DNA of 64,000 nucleotides from Rhizophagus irregularis (taxonomy: Eukaryota > Glomeromycota > Glomeromycetes > Glomerales > Glomeraceae). Positions 14,953 to 17,400 of this stretch are shown piece by piece. The notes under the pieces are model-generated. The model had not been told where the DNA came from. It did not search any database and worked only from the letters and a program-made list of their open reading frames with translations. The stretch covers positions 2,604,001-2,668,000 of the forward strand of contig NC_089441.1 in assembly GCF_026210795.1 (NCBI RefSeq), read 5' to 3'. The translations under genes and the position numbers were made by a program. Every line of letters begins with the position of its first letter. Position 1 is the stretch's first letter.

Positions 14953-15086
14953 AGGTGCATTGCAATGCACCCTCCTTTTTTGGAAATTATTAAATAGTAA
15001 ATTTGCTAATCATAACGTGATCATAAATGATCGACAAATTTACTATTTAAAAATTTTCAAAAAAGGGGATGCGTTCAAACGCAGAT
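14953..15086. mobile_element. Foldback element with a small palindrome at each end
   Basis: The arms TCCTTTTTTGGAAATTATTAAATAGTAAATTTG (about 14972-15004) and CAAATTTACTATTTAAAAATTTTCAAAAAAGGGGA (about 15035-15069) are inverted copies. Outside each arm sits a short palindrome, GTGCATTGCAATGCAC (14956-14971) on the left and TGCGTTCAAACGCA (about 15070-15083) on the right. This gives a three-hairpin outline. The 63-codon frame across it is not a gene. Confidence 0.6.
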
Positions 15087-15623
15087 GCATTCAAATTTTA
15101 AACCCATTTACTATTAATCAATTTCTGAAAATAAAATATAATTTAAAGTAAAATAAAATTTTTATGTTAATAATAAAATTTAATAATTTATTTTTAATTA
15201 ATTCATATTTTATTTGTAAAATAAAAACTCTTCTATTATTATTACTAAGGTTGCTTGCCAAAACTAGGAGGTTTCGGTAAGATAGTATATGTGAAACTGC
15301 TAAAACTAGTTTCGCAAAATCGCCTTAAAATGCTGAAATGCCAAAACTGCTAAAATCTGCAAAACTGTTTTGACGTTTTAGCATAGTATATCATATGATA
15401 TACATATAGTTTTAGCATTCACTATAATCTGCGATTTGCAGATTTTATTCTGATCAGTTTTGGTACATCATATGACTTACCAATCATACTAATTTCTGAT
15501 CTGATAATCTTTTTTTTTATTAAAAAAAAAAGGTTAAAAAAAAACATTTTTATTGTTTATAGTTGGAAAAAATAAACCCACCCTAAACATGAAAGGTTGG
15601 GTTTTTAATTTATTTTCGTTAAA

Positions 15624-15731
15624 ATGCCACCAAAAAACTATTTTGTCATGGAGCTGGCTCATTAAAACAATCCAATAAGCCATTTAAATCAAAACATGCA
15701 ACCAAAGGAACCATTAGAGATAAAACAAAAG
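15624..15731 (+). pseudogene. TSR1: Captured first-exon fragment resembling ribosome-biogenesis protein TSR1
   Basis: From 15647 the frame reads HGAGSLKQSNKPFKSKHATK then GTIRDKTK and stops at AAAG/GTTAAC, a plausible 5' splice site. The pattern LK..NK.(F/Y)KSKHA(S/T)KG is, to my knowledge, the N-terminus of the TSR1 family, GTPase-like factors of 40S subunit assembly. An ATG with MPPKNY lies just upstream (15624) but one base out of frame, so the fragment is frameshifted. No later TSR1 exon follows. It sits inside a TIR element, so it is read as a transduplicated gene fragment and not as the working gene. The family match is from memory. Confidence 0.65.
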
Positions 15732-15809
15732 GTTAACAAATTTTTTTTTTGCTTTTCGATAGTAAAACATTCGAAATGACATTAGTATTATATCAAATTT
15801 TTTGTCTCA

Positions 15810-16610
15810 TTATTTATTTTTTTTGTAGAAATGTCACTAACATTCCTTTTCTCTTTTTTTCTTTAGAGACACCTTCTAGACCTGGAATTTGGCGAAGTGG
15901 TAGGTTGGAAAAGGGGAGGTATGGTTTTATTTTAATTATAAGAACATACCTAACATTCCTTTTCTCTTTTTTTCTTTAGGGATACCTTCCGGACTTTAAA
16001 TTTGGTGTAATGGTAGGTTGGAAAGGGGAAGTGTTGTTTTATTTTAATTTAGGAACGTACCTAACGTTCTTTTCTCTTTTTTTACTTTAGAGCACCTTCT
16101 GGACCTGAAATTCGATGAAATGGTAGGTTGAAAAGGGGGAAGTGTTGTTTAACTTGTTTAATTTTAATTGTAGGAACGTACCTAACATTCCTTTTCTCTT
16201 TTTTTACTTTAGGGTGCCTTTCAGACCTAGAATTTGGCAAAACAGTAGGTTGAAAAGGGAAATGTTGGTTTTTTTTCATTATAGGAACGTATCTAACAGT
16301 CCTTTTTCTTTACTTTAGAGTTATTCTTTTGGGATATAAATTCTGTTGAAATGAAATAAAAACAGCCTCCTGAACGAACCAAAACTTAGAATGTAAGAAA
16401 TGGGAAAGGGGAGTTTTTTTAAATATTAAAGAAACATACTGACGTTTCTTTATTTTTATTAGGTTACCAGACTCCTTGGACGAACCTGGACTTTGGAATG
16501 TTAGTTGGAAAAAGGAGAGGTGATTTTTTTTAATATTAAAAACGTTACTAACGTTTCTTTTTTCTACATTTTTTAGATTATCGGACATTTGGGTGAACAA
16601 AACTCGGGTG
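15810..16610 (+). repeat. Tandem array of about seven exon-like units of about 110-120 bp
   Basis: Each unit has a T-rich tract ending in TTTAG (splice-acceptor-like), an exon-like part of 45-50 nt with a core like ACCTTC(T/C)GGACCTGAAATTTGG and TGGTAGGTTGGAAAAGGGG, then a T-rich spacer with AGGAACGTACCTAAC. Acceptor-like TAGs lie near 15867, 15979, 16090, 16214, 16317, 16462 and 16577. The first four units are clearest; the last three are more diverged. In one frame the cores share a pattern like DLEFGEVVGWKRG, DFKFGVMVGWKGE and NLDFGMLVGKRRG. Two copies have lost that frame through TGA. Expansion by tandem duplication inside the mobile element is likely. Confidence 0.7.
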
Positions 16611-16987
16611 GAGACTGGGGAGTTTACTTCAAAGAAATGTAATCTCTTTATTATTGTAATAATTGTAATAAAATAAAAAAATATTAAGTAAAACAATAAA
16701 AATTACAATAATTTTTTTTTAATTACATATAAATTTATTAGACAATTTGAAATTAAAAAAAAAAATGCTAAAAAATATTAGAATAGCGAAAATATGACAA
16801 AATTCATATAAAATATTAATGCTTGTTATACCGAAACTATGGATAAACTTAATTATAGAGGTTTCACAAATTTTGGCAGTTTCGCACATTTTGGCAGTTT
16901 TGCAGTTTTGCAGTTTTGCAGTTTTGCCACTATGTAAGGGGTTTCACCCTTTGGCATTAGGCCAAATAGGTTTCGGCAGGCAACCTT

Positions 16988-17400
16988 AATTATTACATCA
17001 TTAGGAAGCTTACAGATATTATGTAATTATTAAAGGGAGGAAGGGGGTAACCAAAATCTTACATTACACTTAATAAAATATATAATTGATAAATACTATA
17101 ATTTGATTGGTTATTAAATCTGACAAGGGGGAAAGTAAGTTTATATTAAACTGAATATTATGTAATATATGTAACTCCCTTATTATATCATTATTATCAT
17201 GTAATTTAAAAGTCTCCTTCTAAACTTAACCATAAACTTTCTATATGTCTAAAATATTAAGATATCTATATCTTTTTACTAACTAATTTCCTATCTAATT
17301 TTATATATTACAATATTAATGCATTTAATATCAAAATTAAAGTTTAAAGAGAATGATATAAAAAAAGATGTTAAAAATTAAGTAATAAAAATGGATTTAA
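16988..17400. other. AT-rich spacer
   Basis: Contains short G-rich patches (AAAGGGAGGAAGGGGGTAA near 17032-17050, CAAGGGGGAAAGTAAG near 17124-17140). No gene seen. Confidence 0.4.

Follow-up and report, generated by a model that had tools for sequence, protein, structure and literature searches.

What kind of element is bounded by the inverted termini found in a stretch of 64,000 nucleotides of the arbuscular mycorrhizal fungus Rhizophagus irregularis, and how did its interior come to join a piece of the ribosome-assembly gene TSR1 with an array of exon-like units? This stretch, here called the window, corresponds to positions 2604001-2668000 of contig C13. From its sequence it had been proposed that the termini delimit a gene-capturing element that duplicates TA, carries no transposase and parallels the Pack-type elements of plants (the original prediction). 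For R. irregularis, the accessible text of PMC8647823 describes a recent hAT expansion and the presence of MULEs near expanded genes; according to that of PMC11075540, new hAT families and MITEs have been curated, and two-thirds of the transposable elements of this fungus were unclassified before this recent curation. The reading that we favor, with a probability of about 0.93, is that the feature is a non-autonomous transposon of the hAT superfamily and of the Pack kind, which captured a piece of TSR1, has an array as its interior and is mobilized in trans by relatives that encode the transposase.

Genome search and sample of loci

The genome searched comprises 146.7 Mb in 32 contigs. Relatives were sought genome-wide with the left 235 and the right 209 bases of the window element; 40 of 134 first-look candidates for the left end and 40 of 123 for the right end were scored, and the copy counts given here are lower bounds. 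Forty loci were fetched, 12 of which (L031, L032, L039, L040, L043, L046, L048 and L052-L056) were left out before counting, with an end that was missing, weak or not followed. The ends were paired in the other 28, which together with the window element make up the 29 loci counted.

Ends and target site of the element

The original prediction placed the element between AGGTTGC at 15248 and GCAACCT ending at 16986, and took the TA outside each terminus as the duplicated target. The inverted termini are present with TA outside each of them, but the true element is two bases longer on each side, from 15246 to 16988 (Table 1). The inverted match extends outward of AGGTTGC and GCAACCT, with arms at 15241-15264 and 16970-16993 that are 83% complementary, and TAAGGTTGC occurs as an exact match at two places only in the window, 15246-15254 on the plus strand and 16980-16988 on the minus strand. 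Among the 29 paired loci, TA is the start of the inverted repeat in all the left ends and its close in 28 of the right ends; it belongs to the terminal inverted repeat (TIR) and is not the duplicated target, given that an 8-bp duplication with an 8/8 match lies outside it in 20 of the 29 loci. Because TA is within the TIR and a duplication of this kind is found outside, the window element is of the hAT type and not of a TA-target type. A Tc1/mariner-like element, suggested by the TA found directly outside AGGTTGC and GCAACCT, has next to no probability, since neither the position of TA nor the perfect outer duplications agree with it, the transposase of the relatives is of the hAT type, and the 8-bp duplications together with the empty site of the element nested in L022, described below, refute it.

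The hAT superfamily has short TIRs of the form C/T-A-A/G-N-G, which fits 27 of the 29 left ends (TAAGG in 22, TAAAG in 3 and TAATG in 2), the remaining two being TAAGA. The duplication motif of the superfamily is nTnnnnAn; among 30 duplications, T is found at position 2 in 17 and A at position 7 in 13.

Two features flank the element. On its left, an inverted repeat at 14974-15066, with 40-nt arms that are 88% complementary, may be a separate small inverted-repeat element. On its right, positions 16997-17196 are part of a dispersed repeat found in at least 36 other places at 86-94% (40 of 194 candidates scored), with matches that start at query bases 192-213.

Table 1. Features of the window element and its target site (window coordinates)
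Feature	Position	Strand	Basis or remark
Whole non-autonomous hAT-type element, 1743 bp	15246..16988	+	Paired ends with flanking 8-bp duplication, like other loci
Left copy of the 8-bp target site duplication, ATTATTAC	15238..15245	+	8/8 match to right copy
Right copy of the 8-bp target site duplication, ATTATTAC	16989..16996	+	8/8 match to left copy
Left TIR, TAAGGTTGCTTGCC	15246..15259	+	1202 genome-wide matches of the 19-base end; control, 0
Right TIR, reads TAAGGTTGCCTGCC on minus strand	16975..16988	-	Paired with left TIR
Left end common to transposase-coding L082 and L084 (69%, 194 columns) and L083 (77%, 123 columns)	15246..15419	+	Alignment
Right end common to L082, L083 and L084 (~76%, 226 columns)	16768..16988	+	Alignment
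Captured piece of TSR1 (5'UTR in part, exon 1, intron 1 minus its last G)	15607..15812	+	93% to L058 1488-1693; missing in sisters L017 and L018
Captured TSR1 exon 1, 1-base deletion just after ATG	15624..15731	+	Alignment
Tandem array of exon-intron-like units, ~113-bp period, 4.2 copies	15837..16311	+	Related units further right
Mini-exon-like unit 1, 33 nt	15867..15899	+	Start by eye; donor from intron prediction
Predicted mini-intron 1 (GTAGGT, CTAAC, poly-Y, TAG)	15900..15979	+	Intron prediction
Mini-exon-like unit 2, 33 nt	15980..16012	+	Intron prediction
Predicted mini-intron 2	16013..16090	+	Intron prediction
Mini-exon-like unit 3, 32 nt	16091..16122	+	Intron prediction
Predicted mini-intron 3	16123..16212	+	Intron prediction
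Mini-exon-like unit 4, 32 nt	16213..16244	+	Intron prediction
Predicted mini-intron 4	16245..16318	+	Intron prediction
Predicted mini-intron, second array part (GTTAGT, CTAAC, poly-Y, TAG)	16500..16576	+	Resembles arrays in L026, L037, L041 and others

Copies of the family and evidence of movement

The same pair of ends is found at many loci and is not confined to the window copy, as a search of the genome confirmed: with up to one mismatch, the 19-base end gives 587 + 615 = 1202 matches genome-wide, and the backward control gives 0. At least 7 of 8 positions of the duplication agree in 24 of the 29 loci, four of which (L017, L025, L026 and L037) show 7/8, and the chance of an 8/8 match at random pairs of positions in the window is 0.00026, that is about 0.0003 per site. 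The match falls below 7/8 in the expected register at five loci (L020, 6/8; L019, 5/8; L049, 3/8; L044 and L051, 1/8 each); in L044, CTATTGAC is found on both sides once the register is shifted by one base, and L051 was wrongly paired, given that its right-end match runs in the opposite direction and it has no proper right end. Two elements of only 222 bp have the same ends, L085 with an 8/8 duplication and L086 with 7/8.

A filled site and its empty counterpart were found for a 244-bp member of the family that is nested inside another member at locus L022 and bordered by TTTGTAGT left and right. The sequence made by joining its two flanks aligns over 112/112 bases, with no gap, to L036 (99.1%) and L024 (98.2%), both of which hold a single TTTGTAGT. 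The nested copy and these empty sites represent movement of the family ends with an 8-bp duplication; an empty site had been anticipated, although with a single TA, and what it carries is a single 8-bp copy. For the window copy, a search with the joined flanks led to scattered copies of the right-flank repeat and to three sites that seemed to cross the joint; at these sites no trustworthy match was found left of the joint, the alignment there being AT-rich noise. Longer copies with nested insertions were also observed: that in L027 includes a MULE-type transposase with a FAR1-like ORF, and that in L020 has ORFs of no clear family.

Transposase-coding relatives

As proposed, no transposase was found between the ends of the window element, where the sole stop-to-stop ORF of at least 90 aa overlapping the element matches no Pfam family. 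The search for an autonomous relative gave three transposase-coding elements with the same ends as the window element, L082, L083 and L084 (4480, 4480 and 4431 bp, respectively), which have 8/8 duplications and are mutually 99.3-99.7% alike. The scan for transposase domains covered L082 and L084; in L083 the ORF is interrupted. In both copies scanned, a 572-aa ORF matches DUF659 (E 6.3e-21) and Dimer_Tnp_hAT (E 3e-5, above the cut-off) of Pfam; the 214-aa ORF that precedes it in L082, the one copy scanned for this ORF, matches zf-BED with E 9e-4 and 19.7 bits, just under the cut-off of 20.6. With respect to the hAT catalytic triad, motif-like stretches are visible by eye in the transposase ORF, and a PDB sequence search with the transposase gave no match at E 0.01. 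Matches to the hAT dimerisation domain number at least 150 in the genome (150 of 835 candidates scored).

The two ends of the window element match these relatives in the same order, and between the ends there are only weak, off-register and AT-rich matches, the best being 63% over 169 (E 3.5e-9).

The three transposase-coding elements (L082 is located at C2:4888393-4892872) have an additional ORF of 122 aa, which matches a Myb/SANT-like domain in the one copy scanned, L082 (Pfam Myb_DNA-bind_4, E 2.1e-10), and is followed by an arginine-serine-rich ORF. To our knowledge, no hAT element with such a second, Myb/SANT-like gene has been described.

The captured TSR1 fragment

The TSR1 fragment proposed for the window element is real: 193 of 207 aligned columns are identical to the resident TSR1 gene (L058), another exon of which matches Tsr1 chains in PDB (E 1.2e-16; exon 1 alone gives a weak match, E 0.034). 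Since the fragment runs from the 5'UTR through exon 1 into intron 1, of which it lacks only the last G, it was copied from DNA; the frame of its exon is lost, because one base is missing just after the ATG. Of the contents of the element, only this piece is an identifiable host gene.

The TSR1 stretch was found at five places, namely the L058 gene, the window element, L019, L020 and L059. Given that L019 and L020 have flanks that are alike and are located close to contig ends (C2 near its end and C4 near its start), both were counted as one insertion site, and the TSR1-bearing elements of the family are three, at two insertion sites only. The likeness of these two flanks is what spread of the family by segmental duplication, rather than transposition, would give; the other copies differ in their flanks, most of them with an 8-bp duplication of their own, and the clean empty site of L022 refutes that mode of spread for the family, so it keeps a very small probability. 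L059 (C10:2711124-2714252) carries a copy of TSR1 exon 1 in which 157 of 160 bp are alike; with its different end points and a nearby Plavaka transposase ORF, it looks like a separate copying event.

The sister elements L017 and L018 are devoid of the TSR1 stretch. Because this piece comes from a host gene, we infer that it was gained by one lineage and not lost in the sisters. If L018 is used as the capture-free reference, it has six bases (AATTTA) in common with the source at the left joint and three (TTA) at the right; the six-base microhomology is seen in L018 only, as L017 has AATTAA at that point.

Structure of the array

The amplified exon-like array is real as well, with its period of ~113 bp, but no host source was found for it, and it is present also in the two TSR1-free sisters, in the other relatives examined and in a further hAT-like family. 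In the window, units of 33 or 32 nt lie between predicted introns of 74-90 nt, whose signals are GTAGGT, CTAAC, a stretch of pyrimidines and TAG. The units of the relatives are mostly of 37 nt in L026, L037 and L041, mostly of 39 nt in L042, L044, L047, L049 and L050, and of 37-39 nt in L033, with GTAAGT donors.

Introns were predicted in 28 stretches, consisting of 25 family elements plus L089, L070 and L069 (L020, L025, L027 and L051, nested or unpaired, were left out). The count was 115 in sense, 0 in antisense and 2.1 in shuffled sequences (20 shuffles each), where the 115 are not 115 independent observations, because the units descend from each other. Each of the 28 stretches has at least one predicted intron, the L028/L035 group having only one to three under the strict rule; in the rest of the window, 61,800 bp, the same count gave 0 and 1. 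The array-bearing loci were found through the ends of the window subfamily, so these counts describe that sample and not the whole family.

In many units, including those of L044 and L069, a palindrome that is nearly perfect (AAAGAAACGT..ACTAACGTTTCTTT-like) makes up the region of the branch point, a candidate hairpin or protein-binding site. This palindrome was found in none of the three transposase-coding elements.

An interior common to a second hAT-like family

The interior of L035, a member of the family, matches many other places at ~70% (40 of 83 candidates scored), one of which is a stretch of L089, with 70% over 997 columns. The ends of L089 differ from those of the window family: they read TAAGGATG..., have TTGCGGAAT-like subterminal repeats, and are accompanied by the 8-bp duplication ATTTAAAG, identical in its two copies (779-786 and 2236-2243; by eye). 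The left end of L089 is present in at least 40 copies (40 of 108 candidates scored), and 13 of these 40 adjoin a match to the L035-interior array by their coordinates. L070, with TAAAGTT ends, a 7/8 duplication (by eye) and one further full-length match of its left end, is a weak candidate for a third hAT-like family. The automated end finder was too strict, and did not report the ends of L070 and L089 or the known ends of L044. Upstream of the array, at positions 1-1260 of L070, other exon-intron-like units of different sequences were seen by eye, so arrays of mini-exons may be widespread in the genome.

Coding capacity, divergence and splice signals of the array

Overall, the data do not support a coding role for the array: the length is divisible by 3 in 26 of 67 short predicted exons, near one third, and stops are present in 37 of the 51 frames of 17 joined arrays, including all three frames of the window array. 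The 39-nt group shows a different picture, given that in three of its six elements (L044, L047 and L049) the exons, once joined, read through as a 13-residue repeat; the frame is open with a change of register in L033 and L042, and none is open in L050.

The open frames of L044, L047 and L049, together with the observation by eye that the module begins and ends like a transcription unit, are what would be expected if the array were a real multi-exon host gene family that codes for short repeats and was captured by several hAT families. We consider this improbable, given that the other subfamilies have units of 32, 37 or ~40 nt and stops, that the few matches inspected (L069, L070, L080 and L089) gave no source gene outside transposons, and that in the 39-nt group no in-frame start was seen upstream (by eye). 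A link to SP7-like effector repeats is not supported by the accessible text of PMC11333574, which describes a conserved intron before the first repeat, and not repeats split over exons.

The exon-like parts diverge more than the introns, and 1.4 to 3.4 times as much as the flanks in the three groups with exons. This divergence consists largely of transitions; in two of four comparisons, those of the 39-nt group with its six elements and of the pair L037/L041, transversions too exceed those of the introns, and in the other two they do not, for which reason positive selection on the mini-exons is not claimed. With respect to the splice signals, the six donor bases of the 39-nt group differ in 0 of 480 pair comparisons, versus 3.8% at other intron positions, and neither its branch points (7.3%) nor its YAG (5.4%) show better conservation than those positions. 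Donors are also better conserved in the L026 group (4.4% vs 11.1%), about equal to the other intron positions in the window group (5.0% vs 5.3%) and worse conserved in the L028 group (7.4% vs 1.9%). Selection on the splice signals is not established; it is the order and spacing of the signals, and not the substitution rates, that suggest a splicing role for the array.

A simpler reading is that of an ordinary non-autonomous hAT derivative with an inert interior, in which the TSR1 piece would be an accident of repair and the array a decaying tandem repeat with no role in splicing. The lost frame of the TSR1 exon, the exon lengths and stops mentioned above, splice signals that are not consistently better conserved than the remaining intron, and a faster divergence of the exon-like parts, largely by transitions as the decay of cytosines would give, all agree with it; against it, the order and spacing of the signals are kept over subfamilies and two hAT-like families (115 sense, 0 antisense and 2.1 shuffled), and the donors of the 39-nt subfamily show no differences. 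We give this inert interior somewhat less than even odds.

Discussion

We call the window element Pack-hAT-like because it has hAT ends with an 8-bp duplication, a TSR1 cargo that is absent from its sisters and no transposase of its own. The ends, the 8-bp duplications, a transposase-coding relative, a filled and an empty site of a family member, the source of TSR1 and its presence or absence between sisters were all observed in this genome. With these elements, the following course of events can be proposed. The transposase of the 4.4-4.5-kb relatives with the same ends would move the window element in trans, and its insertion would create the 8-bp target duplication. The interior would be a transcription-unit-like array of mini-exon/mini-intron units and not a shortened transposase gene, and the array is also present in sisters without TSR1. 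One lineage would have acquired a genomic piece of TSR1, comprising 5'UTR, exon 1 and the greater part of intron 1, immediately before the array, the probable route being repair guided by microhomology, with six bases at the left joint and three at the right, if L018 represents the capture-free state; the array could then be transcribed and spliced.

In the window element, the 5'UTR, start codon and 5' splice site of TSR1 are placed in sense directly before the array. A bolder idea, which we put forward as a tentative and rather unlikely one, is that at least two hAT-like families with different ends have in common a passenger module formed by a promoter-like stretch, a tandem array of mini-exons separated by mini-introns with consensus splice signals, and an mRNA-like end; such a module might be mobile and splicing-competent, move between families, and serve as a landing place for captured first exons, giving rise to chimeric spliced transcripts.

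The parallel drawn to the Pack-type elements of plants holds: this is a TIR element without transposase, with a captured TSR1 fragment that was multiplied with the element while the TSR1 gene is still resident. In rice and maize, Pack-TYPE hAT elements with 8-nt duplications are known, and the window element resembles them, as described in the accessible text of PMC8903248, in being non-autonomous, with TIRs, an 8-nt duplication and a captured fragment of a chromosomal gene. It differs from them in being fungal and in having an interior dominated by a mini-exon array that is common to another hAT-like family.

Among the fungi, a comparison can be made with Pyrenophora tritici-repentis, which belongs to a different phylum from R. 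irregularis. In the accessible text of PMC3538342, Manning et al. regard a hAT with a histone H3-like gene in this species as the first case of transduplication among fungi; like the window element, this fungal hAT carries non-transposon sequence between its ends and was multiplied in the genome. The large form of that hAT is called likely autonomous, and its H3-like copies are full-length (PMC3538342, same text), unlike the window element, which has no transposase and a broken exon fragment. The view that no counterpart had been described in this type of fungus agrees with the open-access literature searched, in which no report was found for an arbuscular mycorrhizal fungus, but hAT gene capture was already known in another fungus (PMC3538342). 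In the same literature, no report was found of a gene-fragment-carrying hAT or of a mini-exon array in R. irregularis.

Like hAT-derived MITEs, the window element has the ends of a transposase-coding hAT and no transposase, and 222-bp versions of its family exist (L085 and L086). Its identification as a MITE was rejected, given that it measures 1743 bp and carries cargo, versus the range of 50 bp-1 kb applied to MITEs in the accessible text of PMC11075540. Introners are also mobile DNA with splice signals, and some of their families have TIRs and duplications, although the ascomycete introners are without them, unlike the window element (accessible text of PMC9860276); introners insert into genes and are spliced out as one intron, whereas the window element is a larger unit that holds many predicted introns in tandem. 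The window element is thus of a known kind, a non-autonomous hAT that carries a gene fragment, and its unusual part is the interior common to a second hAT-like family.

For R. irregularis, this is a clear case of gene capture by a hAT in an arbuscular mycorrhizal fungus, with the source gene, capture-free sisters and a transposase-coding relative in one genome, which makes it possible to date the capture and to read its joints. The common mini-exon array raises the question of whether transposons carry spliced passenger modules, and whether these feed new exons into host transcripts.
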